The notes under the pieces: model-generated
What the model was told of the DNA's origin: nothing
The model's input: the letters and a program-made list of their open reading frames with translations, nothing else
Databases searched by the model: none
NCBI GenBank assembly: GCA_024401355.1
Contig: JAKSLF010000011.1
Location: forward strand, 1 to 64,000
From: Bacteroidales bacterium
Lineage (GTDB): Bacteria > Bacteroidota > Bacteroidia > Bacteroidales > Marinilabiliaceae
DNA length: 64,000 nt
Direction: 5' to 3'
Made by a program: the position numbers and the translations under genes
Shown: positions 1,186 to 12,032 of the stretch, one piece after another
Numbering within the stretch: position 1 is the first letter of the stretch
Layout: each line of letters opens with the position of its first letter

Positions 1186-1698
1186 CTATACGGACAAAAG
1201 ATACGCAATCACATTGTCTGCTATGGCTTTGGTTAGTCCTTTCTGGAAGCTGGTCTGGAACAGATGTGACTTTTGTTCATCCGAAGCAACAGGTTCGTCG
1301 TCGATGATGACATAGTTGCTGACATTGTGAGTCTTGAGATAGTCGGATATCTCAAGACTCTTGGGGTGAGGAATATTGAAATTGTCCAGCATCGATAAAT
1401 CAGCGTTTAACAGCCACTCGTCCGATACTCCATTGCGTGTCACATCGCCTATTTCTCCTTTATATCCCCTATCTCTCCACATCTGGCGCAATCCATCGAG
1501 GCCGTATATACCCTTCCATGATGAGATTACGACAATCTTTGCACCTATCGCATGGACAATTCTATAAAGATTGTCCATAGCAACAGGCGAAAAAAGACGT
1601 CCATAACTATCCTCGCGAGGTTTGTCAGCCTCCTGAAGTTCACGCTGATAGTCCTCGGTATTGAGAACTCCATCGAAATCGAGAAAGATGATTTTCAT
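1186..1698 (-). CDS. HAD-fold phosphatase-like protein (Swiss Army Knife RNA-repair HAD type)
   Basis: This 170-residue protein begins KIIFLDFDGVLNT, the DxD motif I of the haloacid dehalogenase fold. Motif II is VVISSWKG (residues about 55-62), and the acidic motif IV is YVIIDDEP (residues about 128-135). Compact HAD proteins with this SSW and IDDE pattern match the HAD domain described in Swiss Army Knife RNA-repair proteins, so a nucleotide or nucleic-acid phosphatase role is plausible. The gene is divergent from the glycosylase-like gene at 1967, and its ATG at 1698 follows a good -7 box. It ends with TAG; TAA follows four codons later. Confidence 0.75.
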   Translation of the reverse strand: MKIIFLDFDGVLNTEDYQRELQEADKPREDSYGRLFSPVAMDNLYRIVHAIGAKIVVISSWKGIYGLDGLRQMWRDRGYKGEIGDVTRNGVSDEWLLNADLSMLDNFNIPHPKSLEISDYLKTHNVSNYVIIDDEPVASDEQKSHLFQTSFQKGLTKAIADNVIAYLLSV

Positions 1699-1743
1699 AT
1701 ATTATGACTTAAAGTTTGGATAACATCGCCTACTAAACTTTTG

Positions 1744-1751
1744 CAAAGTTA
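1744..1751 (-). promoter_or_regulatory. -7 box TAACTTTG upstream of the HAD gene
   Basis: The plus strand reads CAAAGTTA about 45 bases upstream of the HAD start codon. This is a perfect complement of the Bacteroidales -7 consensus. The -33 match at the expected spacing is weak. The region between this box and 1900 carries the repeated ACCTGTG-type leader blocks. Confidence 0.45.
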
Positions 1752-1756
1752 CACAC

Positions 1757-1790
1757 CACCTGTGCAAAAATTGGACATACCCTTCACTTT
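1757..1790 (+). repeat. Degenerate third copy of the ACCTGTG leader block
   Basis: ACCTGTGCAAAAATTGGACA followed by TACCC aligns with ACCTGTGTCAAAATTCTACA followed by CACCC at 148-173. It lies about 75 bases upstream of the well-preserved copy at 1831, between the divergent HAD and glycosylase-like genes. It may be an extra operator or the scar of a local duplication. Confidence 0.35.
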
Positions 1791-1830
1791 TTACCCTTCT
1801 ATTCTTAATTCCTCTTTTTTCACAAAATCG

Positions 1831-1912
1831 CAAACCTGTGTCACATTTCTGCATACCCCTTCTATTTCTTTGCAACATCAAACCAATACTCATGCGAACA
1901 TGGACAGACAAC
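1831..1912 (+). promoter_or_regulatory. Leader/promoter copy B, including a duplicated start-codon region
   Basis: CAAACCTGTGTCACATTTCT, a GCATACCCCT block, a CTTTGCAACATC block and AAACCAATA all recur in the same order at 147-205. The copy extends into the start region: ATGGACAGACAAC at 1900 against ATGGAACAGACAAC at 218, one base shorter. The ATG at 1900 opens only a 45-codon frame that ends at 2037, so it is best read as a decayed copy of the first gene's 5-prime end. The working start of the next gene is the ATG at 1967. Confidence 0.5.
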
Positions 1913-1966
1913 TGCACCGTGATAGTATGATACAGGAAAAAAATGTCAAACTTAAAATAGTAGCTT

Positions 1967-2971
1967 ATGATACTAGAAAAAGATCTGCAGGTAGCTTACA
2001 GCCAAGATTGGGAATCTCTTGGAATTGTGATGAATGAAATCAATGCTGGCATTCAAACTCCGTTTCTGCTTTCGGTGGCAAGAGGAGAAGGTGACGATGC
2101 TGATGAATCATGGTGGACAGAGGCCGATATCCGAGTAATGTTTTTCGGTAAGGAGGCCAACCAATGGAGAAACGAGGACACCGATGATCCTCTGGAGAGT
2201 ATTGAAGCGGCAATGGCTCTTTACAAGAACTTCTACAGTGTTCACTACAATTATGACGCGCAGGTTGGTCACTTCTATACCGAAAATATGAAATCTTCCT
2301 TTTTCAGGGATGGTGTTAACGGCATAATGTCTGAACTTGGTGTAAGATTTCCGGGCAAAAAGATAGCGTGTCTGACAAACAATATATCAAAATTGTCAAC
2401 AAGTGAAGGGAAATCAGTAAGTGCAGGATTGCACGACATAGAGATGGAAGAACTTAGGGTTATTGTGAAGGAAATCAGAATACTCAAGCCAAACATCCTT
2501 ATATTCTTTACAGGTCCAGGTAATAACAAATATTTCAGATACATAAAGCAACATTTCCTAGTGATTAACCAAGAGAAGCTTGGTGACGTGGAGGAAAGAG
2601 ATGCTGTTAGGCTAATTCTTAACAACGATAGACTTGCCTATAAGACTCACCATCCGCAAGGTCACAAGAATCGTTGGGAGCATTATAATGCCATTCTCGA
2701 TGATATCATGCTCAGCAACCAGAAGAGATTTGAGCAGTTTGTTGAATGTGCCCGATTTATTGTCGATACACAAAAGGTATCCTATTCGATGATTCAACGC
2801 GCGTTTGGCTTTACCATTAGTGAAACTATGCATATCATGGACCAGTTATATGAAACTGGAATAATAGGCCCTGAGGATGCAGGTTCTCCCCGTAGTGTTT
2901 TAATTCCAGACATGGACTCTCTGGAACAACATTTAGCAAGAATAAGGGATGAAAACAGAATATACTTTTGA
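1967..2971 (+). CDS. Uracil-DNA-glycosylase-like protein fused to an FtsK-gamma-like winged helix
   Basis: The first two thirds of this 334-residue protein resemble the uracil-DNA glycosylase superfamily in motif order: VMFFGKEANQW (about residues 56-66), a TNNISK segment, a strand ILIFFTGPG, and THHPQGHKNR where the family has its HPSP-type loop. The last 75 residues (FVECARFIVDTQKVSYSMIQ, a helix turn, MDQLYETGIIGPED, PRSVLI) closely match the gamma winged helix of the FtsK translocase, which reads KOPS DNA, but no FtsK motor is present. A DNA-binding repair or sensor protein is inferred; the catalytic residues are not the canonical set. It follows leader copy B. Confidence 0.55.
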   Translation: MILEKDLQVAYSQDWESLGIVMNEINAGIQTPFLLSVARGEGDDADESWWTEADIRVMFFGKEANQWRNEDTDDPLESIEAAMALYKNFYSVHYNYDAQVGHFYTENMKSSFFRDGVNGIMSELGVRFPGKKIACLTNNISKLSTSEGKSVSAGLHDIEMEELRVIVKEIRILKPNILIFFTGPGNNKYFRYIKQHFLVINQEKLGDVEERDAVRLILNNDRLAYKTHHPQGHKNRWEHYNAILDDIMLSNQKRFEQFVECARFIVDTQKVSYSMIQRAFGFTISETMHIMDQLYETGIIGPEDAGSPRSVLIPDMDSLEQHLARIRDENRIYF

Positions 2972-3042
2972 CAGAATGCATAGATAACACGGAATCTGTA
3001 CAACTCAGATTTACAGGATGTCCAACAATACATTATACAAAC

Positions 3043-3450
3043 ATGATAAATATAGTAAAGCGTGCTTTAATGGCGTCTGTTATTGTGCTTACTAGCTGCA
3101 CTAATACCGGTCATGATAATATCAACACAGATTGTTCCGAAACAGCCGAACTGGACTCGTCTGACATTTTCAACGATAAGGTTCTGTATGGCAGTTGGTT
3201 CACCCCTCACGAGGCATCAATAATGAACATCACATTTAACAGGGATAACACTTTCGAGATGAACGACTATAAGCGGATGGACAACGACTTCATATTTCTT
3301 ACCCACGAAGGTTCATTCTGCGTCAATGGCGAAACTATTACACTTAAATGTAGCGACGGTGAAGAACGGACATTAGAGTATATCGAAATAGAAGGTCGGA
3401 TATACCTATGTAACGATAACTCATTGATGATAAAAGGAATGTTGAATTGA
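3043..3450 (+). CDS. Small uncharacterised lipoprotein (lipocalin-like C-terminus)
   Basis: The 135-residue product starts MINIVKRALMASVIVLTSC, a short SPII signal with lipobox LTSC. The body reads LYGSWFTPHE, MNITFNRDNTFEMN and LTHEGSFCVNGETITL, a pattern of short strands (GxW, then F-DG-F) typical of lipocalin-like domains in Bacteroidales lipoproteins. I chose the ATG at 3043 because the 25 codons upstream in the same frame would destroy the signal peptide. It lies 72 bases after the glycosylase-like gene on the same strand and may be co-transcribed. The function is unknown. Confidence 0.65.
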   Translation: MINIVKRALMASVIVLTSCTNTGHDNINTDCSETAELDSSDIFNDKVLYGSWFTPHEASIMNITFNRDNTFEMNDYKRMDNDFIFLTHEGSFCVNGETITLKCSDGEERTLEYIEIEGRIYLCNDNSLMIKGMLN

Positions 3451-3463
3451 AAATGGCAGTAAG

Positions 3464-3612
3464 ATGAAAGACACAAAGGGACATGTTGTACGCATGCGCG
3501 ACCTGATGTTCGATGCGAGTCTGTTTGAAACATTTCGGACAGACACGGCGCTTGACACCCTTCTTAGCAGCCACAAGGGATTGCCCAGAGGAGTCAACTA
3601 TATGATTGTCGG
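3464..3612 (+). pseudogene. Possible 5-prime fragment of a P-loop ATPase gene
   Basis: The frame from ATG 3464 reads MKDTKGHVVRMRDLMFDASL and continues to GLPRGVNYMIVGAN. GLPRG-N-MIVG is the kind of lead-in that RecA/DnaB-type ATPases have immediately before Walker A. The sequence then runs straight into the antisense of the conserved C-terminus of the ADP-ribosylglycohydrolase gene, so the P-loop is missing. It looks like a gene start cut off by a rearrangement at about 3605. The resemblance is short and could be chance. Confidence 0.3.
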
Positions 3613-4521
3613 AGCAAACCTCCTGCATTTTTCCTCTATAAAGTCCATCTTCAGAGTCGCATCTATCCATGCTTGAGGAATACCATTCTCCTCATTGACC
3701 CCATAAATTATCCCAGCCAATCCTCCTGCAACACATGCAACAGTATCTGTATCATAACCGAAATTGACTGCTTGTAGCACCGCATCCTTGTAACAAGTGG
3801 TGTTGCATACACACCAAAGTGCTGTTTTTAGCGTATGCACCACAAAACCACTACTTTCTACCTCTTCCGCAGGAATTGACATATACTGTTTCAAATCCTT
3901 ATAAATACCAACTTTAGTTTTCTCCGTTACTTGCTCAATAGCCGTCATGATGTCACAACCTGCCAGTATTTTTCTTGCTATGGAGACATAAATCACACAC
4001 GCTTCAGTCGACAATTCATGAGCATGGGTTACTGCTGATGCTTTTCTTATCTCATCATCACTAAAGTTGGTAAAAGCCAAGGGAAGTATATGCATCAGTG
4101 AACCATTCCCGTTTTCATCTTCATCGACACAACCACAAAGCTCTATATCTATACCCTTTTCAAAACGACTCATAGACTTGTAAACACATCCTCCTAGACC
4201 AAAAGGGTTATTCAACGAACAGTTATCTCCATTATTCCACCACTCCCAATACTTAACCATCATGGTTTTCATATCAAGTCTACCCTCTTCATCTATGATC
4301 GCATCCATCATTGACAACGCCATCGACGTATCGTCCGACCATGCACCCCAAGGAACGACACCTTTCCAACGTGATCTTGCTGGTATTCCACCTAGATTAG
4401 CATCCACATGATAACCTGTAGCCACAAAAGATCCACGCTCCTCAAATTCAAAAGGAACACCAAGCGCATCTCCTATCGCCATACCGAACAAAGCATCCCT
4501 TATCGTTTCGTATATACGCAT
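3598..4521 (-). CDS. ADP-ribosylglycohydrolase family protein
   Basis: The product has 307 residues when started at MRIYETIRDALFGMAIGDALG. It carries the family signatures: GMAIGDALGVPFEF near the N-terminus, WSDDTSMALSMMDAI (the metal-binding T/S-DD motif, about residues 55-70), and GYDTDTVACVAGGLAGIIYG near the C-terminus (the second D-D-T metal motif). These enzymes remove ADP-ribose from proteins or small molecules using two Mg ions. I chose the ATG at 4521 rather than the upstream frame to 4668 because homology starts there and a TATCTTTGC box lies just upstream. It sits beside toxin- or defence-like accessory genes, but the fold is also common in housekeeping roles. Confidence 0.85.
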   Translation of the reverse strand: MRIYETIRDALFGMAIGDALGVPFEFEERGSFVATGYHVDANLGGIPARSRWKGVVPWGAWSDDTSMALSMMDAIIDEEGRLDMKTMMVKYWEWWNNGDNCSLNNPFGLGGCVYKSMSRFEKGIDIELCGCVDEDENGNGSLMHILPLAFTNFSDDEIRKASAVTHAHELSTEACVIYVSIARKILAGCDIMTAIEQVTEKTKVGIYKDLKQYMSIPAEEVESSGFVVHTLKTALWCVCNTTCYKDAVLQAVNFGYDTDTVACVAGGLAGIIYGVNEENGIPQAWIDATLKMDFIEEKCRRFAPTII

Positions 4522-4557
4522 AAACAATCTATAAACGTATTTCAATATTTCTAAGCA

Positions 4558-4565
4558 AAGATACA
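4558..4565 (-). promoter_or_regulatory. -7 box TATCTTTG for the ADP-ribosylglycohydrolase gene
   Basis: The plus strand carries CAAAGATA, about 37 bases upstream of the chosen start at 4521. It supports the short start, since the longer alternative frame would contain the promoter. Confidence 0.5.
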
Positions 4566-4731
4566 AATATTGCACACAAAGAATAAGCACAGGATTCGCT
4601 TTTTTATATTCACAATAGTTGTGAATACTAACAACACACCTTTTTTTATCTGCAATATGCGACGTCAAACTTATTTTACTACACTCTACAACAATCTATA
4701 ATGTATATTCATAACTATTCAAAACATTTCA

Positions 4732-4852
4732 CAACGTCTATTGCGTATACTCTTCCTTCGCAAGACCATCGACCTCAGACGCCTCTACCCAATAGATATG
4801 AAAATGGAATCCGACTTCTTGGCTGTCTTGTCCGAGCAATTTAGCAAATCTT
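4732..4852 (+). pseudogene. Decayed copy of a small XRE-type regulator
   Basis: The end of this stretch translates as RKTIDLRRLYPIDMKMESDF and continues to a TAA at 4852. This parallels the C-terminal half of the intact regulator 160 bases downstream (RDTIDVKRLYEISEALEYDF). The DNA matches as well: AACGTCTATTGCGTATAC against AACATCTACGGCATATTC, then ACCATCGACCTCAGACGCCT against ACCATCGACGTCAAGCGCCT. The two halves are in different frames and no helix-turn-helix N-terminus survives, so this is a relic. Confidence 0.6.
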
Positions 4853-5011
4853 AATCCGATGACAATGGTATAACTGTGGAATAATATACACAAATCCGTG
4901 ACAACTAATCACACTAACGTCATTATAAACCACGCATAAAATTTAACATGACCAAACAATTATCGTAAAACTTAATACAGAATTATACAAAATAAAGGTG
5001 TAACAAGCATT

Positions 5012-5233
5012 ATGAGTTACGACATTCACATAGGTTCTCTCATCGAGAAGCGGTTGAAAGATCGCGGATGCTCCGTCACTTGGCTCGCAAAAAAAATCAA
5101 CTGCGAGCGTACCAACATCTACGGCATATTCAAACGTGACACCATCGACGTCAAGCGCCTCTACGAAATCAGCGAAGCCCTAGAATACGACTTTTTCGAG
5201 GTCGTGAGAGACGCAATGAGGAAAGAACAATAA
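5012..5233 (+). CDS. Small XRE-family helix-turn-helix regulator
   Basis: This 73-residue protein is essentially one helix-turn-helix: IGSLIEKRLKDRGCSVTWLA, KKINCERTNIYGIFK, then a C-terminal helix with LYEISEALEYDFFEVV. Bacteroidales carry many such minimal regulators of the phage-repressor fold. It is followed after 20 bases by the dynamin-like gene on the same strand, so it is probably the controller of that pair, as single-domain XRE proteins often are in mobile and defence cassettes. A decayed relative lies just upstream. Confidence 0.85.
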   Translation: MSYDIHIGSLIEKRLKDRGCSVTWLAKKINCERTNIYGIFKRDTIDVKRLYEISEALEYDFFEVVRDAMRKEQ

Positions 5234-5253
5234 TTTAGCATATATATAGTACT

Positions 5254-7221
5254 ATGGCAGAAAATGAAATGACAAAGAAAACCTCGATTAAAAAGGGGTT
5301 GGATCAATTTAAGGATAAGATTCTTGACATCTTTTCAGTTGATAATATCGATGATATTCAAACTGATGGAATAAAGAATAAACTGAAAGATTTCCAAGCA
5401 AGTTACGTAAAAAGTACAGTTGAAGAGGTAAGTCATGTGAAGAATGAAGTCGAATCGGCAGTTTATATTGGAATGCTAGGTCGTTATTCTCATGGTAAGT
5501 CTGCTTTGGTCAATGCATTGTTTAATTTGGATGAAATCGATAAGCTGCCAGAAGGTGAGGGGGTAGTCACCTCCAAAGTAACTTTGGTAAATTTCGATTG
5601 CGAAGATAGCTGTGCCATAGCCTACGAAGTAAACGGTGATGAGGAAAAGCAAATCGACATATCTGTTCTTCAGAATAGTGTCAAGCAAAATGACGCGGCA
5701 AGTTTGGTTGACTATTACAAAATCAGTTTGCCTGTAAGTGGGAATCAATTTGCTGAAGAATTTAGGGGGAATGGAATCAACCTTATTGATTTGCCAGGAT
5801 TAGGTGGTCCATATTTTAAGGATACGAGAAAGACCAAAAGGTATGTTGATGACCTAGATATGGTTATCTTGACTATACGTATTGACCAAATCAAAGAAGC
5901 TGCCCTTCACGTACGCCCACAGCTTATTAATTGCTCAATTCCAGTTATACCAGTGTTGACGTATGCTGATATGGCAAGGGAAAGTGATCTGTATGCTGAT
6001 TGCAAAGGTAACCTGTCAGATGACAGCGAAGGTGATGAAATAATTGCAAAGGCAAAGGATATACTAAGTGAACAAATTCCTGAGATATCAAAGTATTTGG
6101 GTAATCTGATTGCAGTTTCTTCACCGAATGGTTATAACATTCCACAGTTACGCGAACTTATACTCAGTTTTGTTAAAGAAGAAAGTATTGCTATTAAGAA
6201 ATCTCGACAGGAAATCTCTCCAGTTTTCAAACGTCGTTCGCAAAGTCTAAAGAAAGCCTATGTGTCTCTTAAGAACAATCTGTCTAATTTTGAATCCTCG
6301 TTTGTTAATCTATATAATGGTTTGTCTCCTGACAAAAACAATTTTTCTTTGGATTTAAAATCTGTATTCCAACACCGTGAAATGCAAAAGCTCAAACGTC
6401 AGTTTATCAAGGACTGCGAGCATGAAATTGACGAGTTTTGTAAGGAAGCAAAATCTCGAATGTCTGAAATCAGTAGTCAAATTTCGATTTCTGATGTAGT
6501 TAAAGGTGTGGATGAAATAAAAAAATCTATTAATGCGAATGGTGGAATAGGTGGAAACCATTCTGACGCTATTAAGTCTTATTTTTCAGAATATAAAAAT
6601 GAAATATGTGACTATTTGACTAGATATTTCAATGAATTATCTTATGATAAACGGTCATTGTCAAAGATTAAGAGTGATGTCGAATCAATTCTGAATGATG
6701 ATTATAATTCAGAGTGGGATAAGGTTTTTGATATAGAGGATGTTAGAAATGATTTAGCAAAGGAAATAGGTATTTACTCTGCAATGACGGGTTTTCAAAT
6801 TCTAAAGGAAATATGTACAGATATAAATTCATTAATTTTATTTTTTGCTGGTGTTGGATTGGTAACGTTTTCAAGTAGTTTGGTTCCAGAGTTTGTACGT
6901 ACCATTGGTTATGTCATGATGTTTGGAGCGGTAATTAAAGTATTTATTAGTGTTCCTAATATTAAAGAAAAGCATTTCGGAAATTTTAAAAGAAAGGTTA
7001 TTGATTCTTTCAAGATGAGTATTGATCCCAATAGTCGCAAAGAGTTATTAAGGCAAGAATGCGATAGGGTGATTGCTGAAATTGCCGATGAACTGCAAGA
7101 TGGTGTCGGATTAAATGACTATTCTAAAGATCAGCGTAGTGTTAGTCGAATGCAAGAAAAAGTGAGTGAGCAGATTCAGAAATTGACTGATATTATTGAC
7201 GATGAAATAAGACAAATCTAA
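5254..7221 (+). CDS. Dynamin-like large GTPase with membrane hairpin
   Basis: This 655-residue protein has clear GTPase motifs: G1 GRYSHGKS (residues 76-83), a G2 threonine in VVTSKVT (about 104-110), G3 DLPGLGG (179-185), and G4 as TYAD (236-239) instead of the usual T/NKxD. A long helical middle (about 310-510) leads to two hydrophobic helices (about 520-545 and 548-570) and a second helical segment. This is the plan of bacterial dynamin-like proteins, which bind GTP and remodel or tether membranes. It is AT-rich compared with the core genes. It stands four bases from its partner gene and shortly after an XRE regulator. The role is inferred; antiphage or membrane-stress functions are known for other bacterial dynamin pairs. 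Confidence 0.8.
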   Translation: MAENEMTKKTSIKKGLDQFKDKILDIFSVDNIDDIQTDGIKNKLKDFQASYVKSTVEEVSHVKNEVESAVYIGMLGRYSHGKSALVNALFNLDEIDKLPEGEGVVTSKVTLVNFDCEDSCAIAYEVNGDEEKQIDISVLQNSVKQNDAASLVDYYKISLPVSGNQFAEEFRGNGINLIDLPGLGGPYFKDTRKTKRYVDDLDMVILTIRIDQIKEAALHVRPQLINCSIPVIPVLTYADMARESDLYADCKGNLSDDSEGDEIIAKAKDILSEQIPEISKYLGNLIAVSSPNGYNIPQLRELILSFVKEESIAIKKSRQEISPVFKRRSQSLKKAYVSLKNNLSNFESSFVNLYNGLSPDKNNFSLDLKSVFQHREMQKLKRQFIKDCEHEIDEFCKEAKSRMSEISSQISISDVVKGVDEIKKSINANGGIGGNHSDAIKSYFSEYKNEICDYLTRYFNELSYDKRSLSKIKSDVESILNDDYNSEWDKVFDIEDVRNDLAKEIGIYSAMTGFQILKEICTDINSLILFFAGVGLVTFSSSLVPEFVRTIGYVMMFGAVIKVFISVPNIKEKHFGNFKRKVIDSFKMSIDPNSRKELLRQECDRVIAEIADELQDGVGLNDYSKDQRSVSRMQEKVSEQIQKLTDIIDDEIRQI

Positions 7222-7225
7222 TATT

Positions 7226-8926
7226 ATGTACAGTAGAGTTTTTTCTCAGATAGAACGAATTAATACTCCTAAGTGCCGTAAGGCACTTGAGGAGTTTGTA
7301 AAAATCCTATTCAACAATAGGGCTAAAGGTAATAATATGCTTATGCTTGGTGTTGATAATAGGTCTCTTATACAAGAGATGTTAGGTGGTTTGTCGGCTC
7401 AAGCAACAATCAAGGAGGAAGCAAAATATAATATTCATATAATAAGAACGATTAAAGATTGTAAGATAGTAGTTAGTTTTAGGCATTATGACTGTATCAA
7501 TGAAAAGACTAAAGAATATGTAAGGGACTTGTTTGAAATTTATAATAAAGATATCGACTTGAATTTGGCATTGAAAAATGGTCAGATTCCTAGTTTGCCA
7601 ATAACAGGACAGAATGAAGTCCAACAATTCCTTGAAAGTCCAAGAGAATGTTTTAGAATACTATCTGGTAATGAGCTCATAGATTCTTTGGATATATCTT
7701 ATCCATCAACAAACGATGAACCTGTTCATAATTCAATAAATGATTTGTGGATAATTACCAAGGAGAATGAATTTATTGCCAGGTCCAAAGGTAATGAAGA
7801 AGAAGGGAATGGAGCAAGTTCATTTTGGAATCAAGTAGTTGCTTCTGGAAAGAATATATACAATTACAATTTTGTTATTTTAAATAATATAGATGATTAT
7901 TTAATTAAGGCGTTTAATGAACTCAGGTCTCTTTATCGCGAAAAATTGTGCCTTGATGATTCTGACGTAAATCTTCTTAATCGAGTATTCATGTTATCTG
8001 ACAACAGATACTATGAAACAAGAAGTGAGTTGCCGTGTAATCTCCTTCAAGATATAAATGCCATACAAGATGATGCAAGAAATGCGGCCATGTATTCTTG
8101 TTTGATAGAAAGGATAAATAAGCTCTGTTTTGCTGATATCTCAAAAATAAGATTGTATGTGGACGAATACAAAAAATCGATGGAAAGATTACGTACAAAT
8201 GTCGTGAAATTTTCGAAGCTAGCTGCAGATTTAAGGCAGATACCTGATAAATATAATAATTTGCTAAGTGAGAAATCGTCTGTTTGTAAATTGCGCGATG
8301 ATAAAAACGATGACAGAGATAAGACTATTGATACAATTGATAAGTCGCAAGTTGTTCTTTCGAAATTCGTTTCTGAATATTGTGATTCAATGCCCCAAGT
8401 TGAAGATTTGACAGAACAAATCAAAAATGGCCGTAAAGAGTACCTTAAGAAGAAGAGAAATTTTATTGGATCATCTTATGTTAAAGGCAAAGATGATTTC
8501 AAAAAATTTGTTAGCAATTATTGTAGAGATTATATTAAAATAGTTGATAATATTCAAAACGAAATAACATGTCCTATACATGACGACATTGAGAGAATAA
8601 AAGCCAAATGTGAAGTTTGTTTTTGTGAAACGTTAGATAGTGTGTTCTCTCCATTGCTAAATATTTCAGCTAAATTATATAACGAACATGGAAGAAACAA
8701 GGGAAAGTTCATGTCCGTAGTTAATCATTTGATTGATCAAAAACTAAATTTTGATGGAATTATGGATGGAACTGTTGCATCCATGTTGGATGAAGCATAT
8801 TCGAAAGTCGATAGCATAGTTAGTCTACAAGAAACGTCTAAAGTGTTAGATGTACTTGAAGAAGAACAAGTATATCGTGAGATTGTCCAAATACTTCAAG
8901 ATGAAATCAAGAAAACTATCTTGTAA
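7226..8926 (+). CDS. Coiled-coil partner of the dynamin-like GTPase, apparently without a P-loop
   Basis: I do not recognise this 566-residue protein as a named family. It starts four bases after the GTPase gene, so the two are translated together. The N-terminal part resembles a GTPase fold that has lost its nucleotide site: MLMLGVDNRSLIQEML (about 38-53) sits where a GxxxxGKS strand-loop-helix would be, and FVILNNIDD (about 216-224) sits where a G4 strand with its Asp would be. The rest (about 290-566) is long helices with heptad-like stretches such as VVKFSKLAADLRQIPDKY. Paired bacterial dynamins often have unequal partners, so a pseudo-GTPase subunit is a reasonable inference. It is AT-rich like its neighbour. 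Confidence 0.65.
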   Translation: MYSRVFSQIERINTPKCRKALEEFVKILFNNRAKGNNMLMLGVDNRSLIQEMLGGLSAQATIKEEAKYNIHIIRTIKDCKIVVSFRHYDCINEKTKEYVRDLFEIYNKDIDLNLALKNGQIPSLPITGQNEVQQFLESPRECFRILSGNELIDSLDISYPSTNDEPVHNSINDLWIITKENEFIARSKGNEEEGNGASSFWNQVVASGKNIYNYNFVILNNIDDYLIKAFNELRSLYREKLCLDDSDVNLLNRVFMLSDNRYYETRSELPCNLLQDINAIQDDARNAAMYSCLIERINKLCFADISKIRLYVDEYKKSMERLRTNVVKFSKLAADLRQIPDKYNNLLSEKSSVCKLRDDKNDDRDKTIDTIDKSQVVLSKFVSEYCDSMPQVEDLTEQIKNGRKEYLKKKRNFIGSSYVKGKDDFKKFVSNYCRDYIKIVDNIQNEITCPIHDDIERIKAKCEVCFCETLDSVFSPLLNISAKLYNEHGRNKGKFMSVVNHLIDQKLNFDGIMDGTVASMLDEAYSKVDSIVSLQETSKVLDVLEEEQVYREIVQILQDEIKKTIL

Positions 8927-8943: not shown

Positions 8944-9030
8944 TACTGAAATAGGTTTACATTAAAAGCCCAACAAACTAATAAGAAAATTGAATAGATA
9001 TTCTATTAATCGTGTAAACCTATTTCAGTA
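8944..9030. mobile_element. 87-bp element with 18-bp perfect terminal inverted repeats (MITE or IS remnant)
   Basis: TACTGAAATAGGTTTACA (8944-8961) and its exact complement TGTAAACCTATTTCAGTA (9013-9030) bracket 51 bases without coding capacity. Perfect arms of this length at this distance are too long for an ordinary terminator loop. Ends beginning TACTGAAATAGGTTxACA resemble insertion-sequence termini I associate with Bacteroidetes IS3-type elements, but no transposase is present and I see no clean target duplication. It lies 18 bases after the dynamin pair, at the boundary of the accessory region. Confidence 0.5.
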
Positions 9031-9491: not shown

Positions 9492-11099
9492 ATGAATATG
9501 AACATTAACTTATCACCAGACATAAAGGAAATTGTCCGCATAAGCCAATCGCACGCCAGACGCCTTGGACACAGTTTCATCGCACCAGAACACCTTTTGC
9601 TCGCTCTGCTGCAAGAGTCCAACAGCGACATTCTTGACATCTTAAACTACATGAATGTCAATCCTGCCAACATCTGCGAAATGATTGTCAGCAAGATGAG
9701 TGTCGGCACACCCGACTCTGTCGATGACGGCGACCTCCCACTCTTTCGCTCCACTGAGCGCATACTCCGCTTTGTCGAACTCGAAGCAAAGGACGCAGGT
9801 GACAAAAATATGAACCTCACACACCTTTTCCTTGCCATCCTTCGTGAAGAAGGTACCGTTGCCAGAGATGTCCTAGACCAAAATAAACTTTACTATACCA
9901 AGGTCAAGGCATACATCGAAAAGAAAAAAGGTCACGAAAACCCATTAGACTCAATGCTCGACGACGAAGACGACGAGGATGACAGCCCGTTCGCACAAGG
10001 TGGCAGCAACAGGGGACAGTCCGCTATGCGCCCCAACGCACCACAGCCTAACAATACAAATGTCAACTCCGACACTCCTGTGCTCGACAGCTTTGGCATC
10101 GACATGACAAAAGCCGCTGAAGAAGGCAAACTCGACCCCGTCATCGGCCGCGAAAAGGAAATAGAACGCATCTCACAGATTCTTAGCCGCAGAAAAAAGA
10201 ACAACCCAATACTTATCGGTGAACCAGGCGTCGGCAAGAGCGCTATCGTCGAAGGACTCGCACTTCGCATCAAGGACCACATCGTCCCTCGCGTCCTTTT
10301 CGACAAACGCATCTTCTCGCTCGATCTGGCATCCGTTGTCGCAGGTACCAAATATCGTGGACAGTTCGAGGAACGCATCAAGGCTATCCTCAACGAACTC
10401 ACACACAATCCTAATATAATCCTCTTCATCGACGAAATACATACTATCGTCGGAGCAGGAGGAGCAACCGGCAGCCTCGACGCCGCCAACATGCTCAAGC
10501 CAGCTCTGGCTCGAGGACAGATACAGTGCATCGGAGCTACAACTCTCGACGAATATCGACAGGTAATAGAAAAGGACGGAGCTCTCGAACGCCGATTCCA
10601 GAAGGTCATCGTCACCCCTACTACGGCCGAAGAGACTATTCAGATTCTTAACAACATAAAGGAGAAGTACGAGGCACATCACAATGTCACCTACACTCCC
10701 GAAGCTATCCGCGCCTGCGTCACTCTCACCGAGCGATACATCAGCGACCGACATCTCCCCGACAAGGCTATCGACGCACTCGACGAGGCAGGTTCGCGCG
10801 TACATATTACAAATATAGTTGTACCTAACGAAATTGTCGAACTCGAAAACCGCATCGAAGATATTCGCAACAAGAAGAAAATGGCCGTACAAGACCAGAA
10901 TTTCGAACTCGCCGCTTCATTCCGCGACAAGGAGAAGTTCCACTGTTCCGAACTGGCCGAACTCAAGCAGCACTGGCAGGAAAGCCTCGTCAACCAGCGC
11001 GAAATCGTCGATGAAGATATGGTCGCACATGTCGTCGCTATGATGACTGGCGTCCCTGTCCAGCGCATCGCACAGGCCGAAGGCGAACGTCTGTTGTAG
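9492..11099 (+). CDS. clpC: ClpC-type AAA+ chaperone, N-terminal part up to an in-frame TAG
   Basis: These 535 codons encode the Clp N-terminal repeat domain ([20 protein letters not shown], then a second copy near [11 protein letters not shown]), an acidic linker, the first AAA domain (Walker A GEPGVGKS near 243, Walker B ILFIDEIH near 310) and the short M-domain coiled coil (about 455-500). ClpC unfolds proteins and feeds them to ClpP. The frame stops at TAG (11097-11099) after AEGERLL, where relatives read on with Lys (AAG) and then MNDEL. The next codon is ATG and the rest of the protein continues in the same frame, so a single base separates this from an intact 846-residue ClpC. Codons are rich in C-ending forms, unlike the AT-rich genes upstream. 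Confidence 0.9.
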
Positions 11100-12032
11100 A
11101 TGAACGACGAACTCAAAGGCTCTATCGTCGGACAGGACGAGGCTATACAGAAGGTCGTCAAGGCGATCCTCCGCAACCGCGCCGGACTCAAGAATCCTAA
11201 CCGACCTATCGGCTCTTTCATTTTCATGGGACCAACTGGTGTCGGAAAGACTCTCCTCGCTCAAGTCCTGGCTAAATACCTTTTCGACTCTACCGACGCT
11301 CTCATTCGTGTCGACATGAGCGAATACATGGAAAAGTTCGCCGTCTCTCGTCTCGTCGGAGCACCTCCGGGCTATGTCGGATACGAAGAAGGCGGACAGC
11401 TGACAGAAAAGGTGCGACGCAAACCCTACTCTGTCGTTCTCCTCGACGAAATAGAAAAGGCACATCCCGACGTCTTCAACATCCTCCTGCAGGTGCTTGA
11501 CGAAGGTATGCTCACCGACTCGCTCGGACGTAAGGTCGACTTCAAGAATACTATCATCATCATGACTTCCAATGTCGGCTCACGCGAACTCAAGGAGTTC
11601 GGACGTGGCGTCGGCTTTGCACAGGAACTTCGTGAATCCGACGACGACCGAGCACGCGGCATCCTCCAAAAGGCTCTCAAGAAGGCTTTCGCACCCGAAT
11701 TCATCAATCGTATCGATGACATCATCACCTTCAAGGAACTCAAGAAGGACGATATATTCAACATCATCGACATCGAACTCCGTGGCCTCTACAAGCGCAT
11801 CAGCGAACTCGGCTTCACTCTCACACTGACCGACGACGCTAAGAACTACATCGCCGACAAGAGCTACGATTCACAATACGGTGCACGCCCTCTTCGCCGC
11901 TCTATACAAAGGTATGTCGAAGATGTACTCGCCGAACTCATCATCGAGGCAAAACTCTCACAGCCAGGAACTATAGTCCTCGACTATGACAAGGAAACTG
12001 ACAAAATGGTCACAAGAACTACAAACCAATAA
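11100..12032 (+). CDS. clpC: ClpC-type AAA+ chaperone, C-terminal AAA domain
   Basis: This is the direct in-frame continuation of the preceding CDS, starting with the ATG that touches the TAG. Its 310 residues carry the second AAA domain: Walker A GPTGVGKT (about 42-49), VDMSEYMEKFAVSRLVGAPP, Walker B VVLLDEIEKAHPD (about 113), a GVGFAQE segment where ClpC has its hydrophobic ClpP-docking loop, and the C-terminal small domain with GARPLRRSIQRYVED. If both halves are made by termination and reinitiation at TAGATG, they might reassemble. Read-through would give the normal one-chain enzyme. Whether this is a real polymorphism, a recoding event or a sequence error cannot be told from the DNA alone. 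Confidence 0.9.
   Translation: MNDELKGSIVGQDEAIQKVVKAILRNRAGLKNPNRPIGSFIFMGPTGVGKTLLAQVLAKYLFDSTDALIRVDMSEYMEKFAVSRLVGAPPGYVGYEEGGQLTEKVRRKPYSVVLLDEIEKAHPDVFNILLQVLDEGMLTDSLGRKVDFKNTIIIMTSNVGSRELKEFGRGVGFAQELRESDDDRARGILQKALKKAFAPEFINRIDDIITFKELKKDDIFNIIDIELRGLYKRISELGFTLTLTDDAKNYIADKSYDSQYGARPLRRSIQRYVEDVLAELIIEAKLSQPGTIVLDYDKETDKMVTRTTNQ

Follow-up and report, generated by a model that had tools for sequence, protein, structure and literature searches.

In a Bacteroidales bacterium of the Marinilabiliaceae (GCA_024401355.1), a short run of plus-strand genes for an XRE-type regulator, a dynamin-like GTPase (DLP) and a partner protein lies on contig JAKSLF010000011.1, of which positions 1-64,000 were analysed and are, as a whole, called the window. 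The locus looks like a variant of the known paired bacterial dynamins, which are linked to membrane repair and phage defence. We read the run as a horizontally acquired dynamin module, in which a heteromeric, membrane-anchored machine under XRE control would protect against membrane damage or phage; judged from sequence and from analogy with described systems, this reading is given a probability of about one half. The Dynamin_N, LeoBC and LeoA matches of the DLP, the conserved adjacency of DLP and partner, their sporadic presence and their low G+C content all argue for such a module. So do a block shared by two related loci and ending at the partner stop codon, the defence-type neighbours of the relatives, and the linkage of one XRE clade to dynamin genes. 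These two loci are L010, on a contig of genome G392 (a goat-abomasum Bacteroidales), and L011, from a sheep-rumen Bacteroidales.

Three open reading frames (ORFs) of 73, 655 and 566 amino acids (aa) are located exactly where the initial annotation had placed them, with spacers of 20 bases between the XRE and DLP genes and of 4 bases between the DLP and partner genes. The run is placed between an XRE remnant on its 5' side and an inverted repeat on its 3' side:

4762-4854, plus strand: remnant of a second XRE regulator, last 30 codons and stop (translation, weak XRE profile match, tree grouping with the intact XRE clade)
5012-5233, plus strand: 73-aa single-domain XRE/Cro-type regulator (Pfam HTH_26; clade with the dynamin-linked XREs of genomes G067 and G006)
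5254-7221, plus strand: 655-aa DLP (Dynamin_N, 2.7e-11; PADLOC LeoBC and LeoA matches)
5479-5502, plus strand: DLP G1 motif GRYSHGKS (sequence; invariant in three orthologs)
5788-5808, plus strand: DLP G3 motif DLPGLGG (sequence; invariant in three orthologs save the first L)
6811-6948, plus strand: predicted two-helix membrane hairpin of the DLP, residues 520-565 (hydropathy)
7226-8926, plus strand: 566-aa partner, with residues ~1-330 (7226-8215) matching the 366-aa partners of L010 and L011 and the remainder forming a C-terminal extension (phmmer, alignments)
8944-9030, no strand: 87-bp inverted-repeat element with 18-bp arms (sequence; exact core unique to the site in the genome)

The GTPase and its partner

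The sequence shows the DLP to be a GTPase of the dynamin family in which G1 and G3 are intact and a membrane hairpin is predicted. It matches the Pfam family Dynamin_N (PF00350) at E 2.7e-11 (44.2 bits, cut-off 27), and this G domain with its G1 and G3 makes it a member of the dynamin superfamily. The motifs GRYSHGKS (residues 76-83), DLPGLGG (179-185) and TYAD (236-239), as well as two hydrophobic segments (520-538 and 547-565 on the Kyte-Doolittle scale), were recovered as the initial annotation had described them. Among the PADLOC models, LeoBC is matched at 1e-12, best over residues 332-654 in the helical part, and LeoA at 9.6e-12, best over residues 42-114 only.

The head of the partner, comprising about 330 residues, is inherited together with the DLP; the partner matches that of L010 at 1.1e-24 (phmmer). 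It is followed by an extension of ~230 residues that is not contained in the 366-aa partners and is largely helical in a low-confidence AlphaFold2 model (three-row alignment, mean pLDDT 33.6, pTM 0.23), which is too poor for a fold search. The partner has no Pfam family above the curated cut-off and no NCBIfam match. Against PADLOC and PHROGs, it gives weak matches only, in helical stretches. Weak matches to SLATT_6, ZorA, DruC, tape-measure and flavin-monooxygenase entries were dropped, being mostly in helical stretches or below cut-off. The best PDB match of the single sequence is a dehydratase (E 0.0018) over a helical stretch, and the three-row profile has no PDB match at E up to 10; since the DLP profile likewise finds no PDB chain at E 0.1, PDB sequence searches are insensitive here.

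In the initial annotation, the partner was taken for a pseudo-GTPase carrying MLMLGVDNRSLIQEML in the place of a P-loop and FVILNNIDD in that of a G4 strand. Both stretches are present, at residues 38-53 and 216-224, respectively, and the claim built upon them gained no support from the computations made here. That the partner is a true pseudo-GTPase, i.e., a second dynamin that has decayed, is conceivable, although we lean against it. By eye, the order of strand-like stretches together with the NNID and NHND stretches of the partners resembles a decayed G4, and N220 and D223 of the G4-like NxxD are kept in the alignment of all three partners; moreover, bacterial DLPs usually occur in pairs according to one report (PMC6104087), and a clearly degenerate dynamin, DLP1, exists in L010 and L011. 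On the other hand, the G1 loop is, again by eye, shortened and a G3 is absent, no Pfam GTPase was found in the three partner members at E up to 10, and the PDB searches returned none. In addition, hhalign comparisons of the whole partner and of its head with five DLP groups and one pooled set (12 comparisons) gave E-values of 0.035-0.63 at probabilities of at most 1.5%, the best match (E 0.035, probability 1.5%) falling outside the G domain. Seven of the nine DLP-DLP controls reached E 7.6e-5 or better, three over 41-55 columns only, and the two failures were those of the degenerate DLP1 against groups A and B. Because DLP1 is itself missed in two of three comparisons, the missing profile match between partner and DLPs is no disproof of a pseudo-GTPase.

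Ruminant relatives and distribution

L010 and L011 both encode a DLP ortholog (DLP2) with the motifs GRYSHGKS and PGLGGPYF, which is 34% and 32% identical, respectively, to the window DLP and is followed, after 5 bases, by a 366-aa partner with 25% identity to that of the window. The objection that homologues of the two genes might never be adjacent falls, because DLP and partner adjoin at these two further loci. There is no XRE gene directly upstream of the L010 and L011 cores. A third protein, DLP1, is encoded just upstream of DLP2; it is degenerate, with GNSNSEKS as G1 and no proper G3, and the L010 copy is related to the window DLP by BLAST (E 9e-5). According to hydropathy, the window DLP and the L010 DLP1, to which the L011 DLP1 aligns, each carry a pair of membrane segments, which was not found in DLP2 of either ruminant locus. 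Given that the hairpin is on different chains and that the window partner has its extension of ~230 residues, the window and the ruminant loci seem to divide the same functions among their chains in different ways.

A BLAST comparison of L010:5640-10870 with L011:595-6421 returned two blocks, namely a leader of 116 bp (87% identity), which stops near the gene 1 start codon, and a core of 4.5 kb (92.7%), which extends from early DLP1 to the partner stop codon; outside the core, there was no match except for this leader. Gene 1 is an AHH nuclease-like ORF in L010 (PF14412, 2.7e-9) and an 8xMP membrane protein in L011 (PF24838, 3.9e-21; L011:715-1848), without significant DNA or protein similarity between them. 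Inside the core, the identity is 97% for DLP1, 99.1% for the first 900 bases of DLP2, 73.8% for the rest of DLP2 and 95.3% for the partner. At the protein level, residues 1-300 of DLP2 are 96-100% identical per 50-residue block and residues 401-500 are 52% identical, with seven amino-acid and seven silent differences in codons 1-345 versus 87 and 59 in codons 346-589. By this pattern, the DLP2 stalk has been exchanged or has diversified between the two loci, alongside the swap of gene 1; as this joint change is seen in one locus pair, it does not show that the linkage is necessary. Different first genes, a kept leader and core, and a diverged DLP2 stalk together suggest an exchangeable-effector module built round a dynamin core.

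In the family of G392 (18 genomes), the DLP profile matched six genomes at seven places. An 8xMP gene (PF24838) is directly upstream of the dynamins in three of the seven, all from one genus (L011; L087, 4287-5276; L090, 5575-6609), and an FRG/PDC-S15 gene is downstream in two, i.e., after the L010 core and after the L087 pair. Because FRG and 8xMP genes flank the relatives, we lean towards defence; none of these genes is beside the window copy. The L086 and L087 pairs match the LeoA and/or LeoBC models. In the window, L010, L086 and L087, one protein of each cassette carries a hairpin-like hydrophobic pair, and L077, a locus introduced below, has a single hydrophobic segment on one protein. 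The L086 pair is followed by ORFs that, from the start of their sequence, may be read as an OLD-like ATPase, and the genome of L011 contains a dynamin-family gene cluster of a different type (L088:157-6389).

The gene pair is rare and, from its sequence and distribution, probably horizontally acquired. In a survey of the family, partner and DLP were each matched in one of 71 genomes, both times the window's own. In the order (393 genomes), the partner query matched four genomes; after rejection of two of these, the window genome and G392 remain. In the phylum (395 genomes), the partner profile matched the window genome only. With the partner profile, an order survey round G392 (393 genomes) returned G392 and two weak matches (E 0.004 and 0.037), the latter (L094) being an 86-aa frame with a stop. 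On reading the translations, several candidates were rejected: the match in L004 is inside an ATPase-like ORF, that in L005 inside a phage- or replication-type ORF, L012 and L013 are a SelB-like elongation factor, and the ORF of L093 looks FecR-like. A pattern scan of an 84,980-species collection with the DLP alignment confirmed at least four loci, two of them L010 and L011, the count being a lower bound as exact short patterns are required.

The XRE regulator and its genomic site

The 73-aa regulator is a Cro/C1-type helix-turn-helix protein by its match to HTH_26 (PF13443; 3.6e-5, 24.4 bits, cut-off 22). The decayed copy noticed upstream in the initial annotation is real in the sense that the 30 codons and stop at 4762-4854 are picked up weakly by the XRE profile when read in this frame (16.4 bits, domain E 1.7e-4). 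XREs of this type form a large family, with matches at 1e-5 in 75 of 393 genomes of the order. The closest ones outside the window's genome, in G067 (locus L077) and G006 (locus L078), are directly upstream of dynamin genes, which lends support to the link between regulator and dynamin. In L077, the XRE is followed by a DUF1232 protein, a DLP and a DLP-ankyrin protein (L077:323-4893), and in L078 by a DLP and a DLP-ankyrin that are split into several ORFs (L078:4123-7552). These loci of the same family thus share with the window a same-clade XRE directly upstream of dynamin genes, and differ from it in having a DLP-ankyrin instead of the partner.

A dynamin G-domain hidden Markov model, run over 75 XRE loci with duplicates included, matched at the window, G067 and G006 only. 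These loci represent 64 distinct XRE places by a 60-base key, the window remnant among them, and cover part of the XRE matches; the test reached ~1.5 kb to either side, with fewer than 900 bases available downstream in three. The XRE search profile had been built from the three dynamin-linked XREs, and the model included the DLPs of L077 and L078, which Pfam shows independently to be dynamins. In the XRE tree, a clade with a support of 0.972 unites the XREs of G067 and G006, the tandem pair of G000:C1, and both the intact XRE and the remnant of the window, and three of its four loci are dynamin loci; resting on 70 residues, the tree is weak, and the placement of the remnant is weaker still. 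Two partial XRE matches elsewhere on G000:C1 were left out.

Dynamin modules that replace one another behind a regulator resident at the site would explain why this clade recurs ahead of different dynamin pairs. The earlier description of the run as AT-rich applies to the DLP (G+C 0.349) and the partner (0.319), compared with 0.417 for the window, and not to the XRE gene (0.468). As this value is host-like, the regulator may have been at the site before the DLP.

Taken further, the XRE might be a chance neighbour, part of the host site and not of the module, which we regard as rather unlikely. Its host-like base composition, the size of its family in the order, the lack of such a gene ahead of the L010 and L011 cores and the tandem XREs at G000:C1 without an adjacent dynamin fit this view, as do the leaders, since no conserved block was found in the 220-bp stretches upstream of four clade XREs. 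Against it stand the two closest XREs of other genomes, both just upstream of other dynamin genes, and the finding that the examined places outside that clade are never upstream of dynamin genes.

Further right, the 87-bp inverted repeat at which the initial annotation let the run end was found at 8944-9030, with arms (8944-8961 and 9013-9030) that are perfect over 18 bp. Its 16-bp core has one forward and one reverse occurrence in the genome, both at the element itself, and a 17-mer of the repeat, with up to three mismatches, has four matches in the window, two of which are the arms, versus 0.23 expected. The element could be a mobile-element remnant or a small invertible segment; a direct repeat at its ends was not seen by eye. 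The clpC-like gene right of the run (9492-12032) consists of two same-frame ORFs meeting at 11099/11100 with a stop between them, and clpC was found in 13 of the 15 genomes of the genus, including that of the window. The window's left-hand genes do not adjoin clpC in any of 12 stretches, of which L038, L045 and L046 carry little or no upstream DNA, and the ancestral site is not readable from them. These left-hand genes (1186-4668) include those for a HAD_SAK_2 protein, for a protein carrying an FtsK gamma domain close to the C-terminus and for an ADP-ribosylglycohydrolase, as well as an ORF whose lipocalin-like matches stay below threshold. Near same-clade XREs of two genomes, homologous proteins of 386 and 389 aa are encoded (L076:6214-7374 and L077:6558-7727; phmmer, 3.5e-90), which have no Pfam family above cut-off.

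Known systems and proposed function

With LeoABC, the window shares a large dynamin-family GTPase, here with a predicted membrane segment in its helical part, located beside a second module gene, and LeoA and LeoBC are the best PADLOC matches of the window DLP. In enterotoxigenic Escherichia coli, LeoA and LeoB plus LeoC are both described as dynamins (PMC4159319). The window differs in that its partner lacks a dynamin match, the Leo models do not recognise the DLP orthologs, and an XRE gene is upstream. The PADLOC "Dynamins" definition asks for adjacent LeoA and LeoBC, both dynamins; in the window, the DLP matches both models and the partner neither. Campylobacter jejuni Cj-DLP1/Cj-DLP2 are likewise encoded by two adjacent genes and form a heterotetramer, a heteromeric assembly of the kind expected here; however, both have GTPase, neck and trunk (PMC6104087), and in the window pair one protein demonstrably has a G domain. 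Bacillus subtilis DynA is a bacterial dynamin with a membrane and anti-phage role, giving phage protection at population level (PMC8844932), but is composed of two DLPs fused in one chain (PMC6104087).

A dynamin-type GTPase with an adjoining non-GTPase partner is known from E. coli RdcA/RdcB (YjdA/YjcZ), in which the partner, of no known family, is bound by RdcA (PMC6510439). Homology is not evident: with phmmer at E up to 10, the window partner matched RdcA at 0.86 and the DLP matched it at 1.1, and RdcB was matched by neither. The "undescribed" of the initial annotation can stand for this gene set within the searches made and not for its principle, given that paired dynamins and an RdcA/RdcB-type GTPase with a non-GTPase partner are known. 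Among the titles and abstract openings listed from the open-licence literature, no such arrangement was found for a dynamin with a pseudo-GTPase, a heterodimer, an XRE or an accessory protein, and no open-licence paper was found on a dynamin with 8xMP.

In the dynamin module that we favour, the XRE would probably set the dose of the operon. The DLP is quite likely to be anchored in the inner membrane via its hairpin and to assemble there in a GTP-dependent manner, and the partner is likely to bind it, completing or gating the assembly in the role that the second protein has in a typical bacterial dynamin pair. There is an even chance that the module responds to membrane damage or phage infection and that its output shields the cell or the population. 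It might support the membrane and delay lysis, which has been reported for DynA, or, if the ruminant loci headed by an AHH nuclease-like or 8xMP gene are a guide, gate an effector. A defence role of the window run itself is a guess. LeoA/LeoBC or LeoABC dynamins have been listed among predicted defence systems (PMC10999152, PMC13335696).

Several observations weigh against this protective module. DLP1, DLP2 and the partner are without a LeoA/LeoBC match at E up to 0.1 in L010 and at 0.01 in L011, so the Leo label is weakened. LeoABC has been described as a secretion and vesicle factor (PMC4159319), and predicted island dynamins were inactive against the phages tested in one report (PMC12595487). 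PADLOC recognised no defence gene among seven neighbour ORFs in the window, where the two ClpC ORFs match AAA-type models only; no relative was found in viral contig scans, plasmid records or, searched with the DLP only, phage records. The sole other partner loci, L010 and L011, are close copies in one genus, so that there is about one independent case of DLP-partner pairing. Finally, the XRE gene has a host-like G+C, and its clade includes the locus at G000:C1, whose tandem XREs have no dynamin beside them.

It is improbable, in our view, that the pair is a signalling switch instead of a membrane machine, i.e., an RdcA/RdcB-like GTPase and non-GTPase partner reading the GTP level or another cue and activating a membrane-bound target. 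RdcA offers a precedent, its target being the membrane domain of DgcE (PMC6510439), and the differing first genes of L010 and L011 would fit interchangeable outputs; yet RdcA is described as soluble (PMC6510439) and has no hydrophobic segment, whereas the window DLP has a predicted hairpin, the window proteins are dissimilar to RdcA and RdcB, and a target gene was not recognised beside the window pair. Less likely still is a LeoABC-type outer-membrane vesicle or secretion function with no phage role: the LeoBC/LeoA matches of the window DLP and the lowered release of one periplasmic and one outer-membrane marker upon leoAB disruption (PMC4159319) recall it, but the module is sporadic and AT-rich, its orthologs miss the Leo models, and the FRG, 8xMP and AHH neighbours of the relatives do not suggest secretion.

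A more far-reaching and speculative version of the protective module, which we hold to be rather unlikely, is suggested by the near-identical ruminant copies, as these keep leader and core and differ in the first gene and the DLP2 stalk, which might be fitted to the effector. DLP and partner would then sense and switch, as the core of an immune module with an exchangeable killing gene; in the window, the output would be provided by the C-terminal extension of the partner, and the module would be set by an XRE whose relatives in the clade stand ahead of unrelated dynamin pairs in other genomes.

Pairs of dynamins are familiar from bacteria. What this locus and its relatives add is a conserved dynamin partner, a regulator clade recurring ahead of unrelated dynamin pairs, and a natural gene swap in which core and leader are kept while AHH nuclease-like and octameric-membrane-protein genes replace one another. 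This makes it testable whether bacterial dynamins act on membranes directly or switch effectors.

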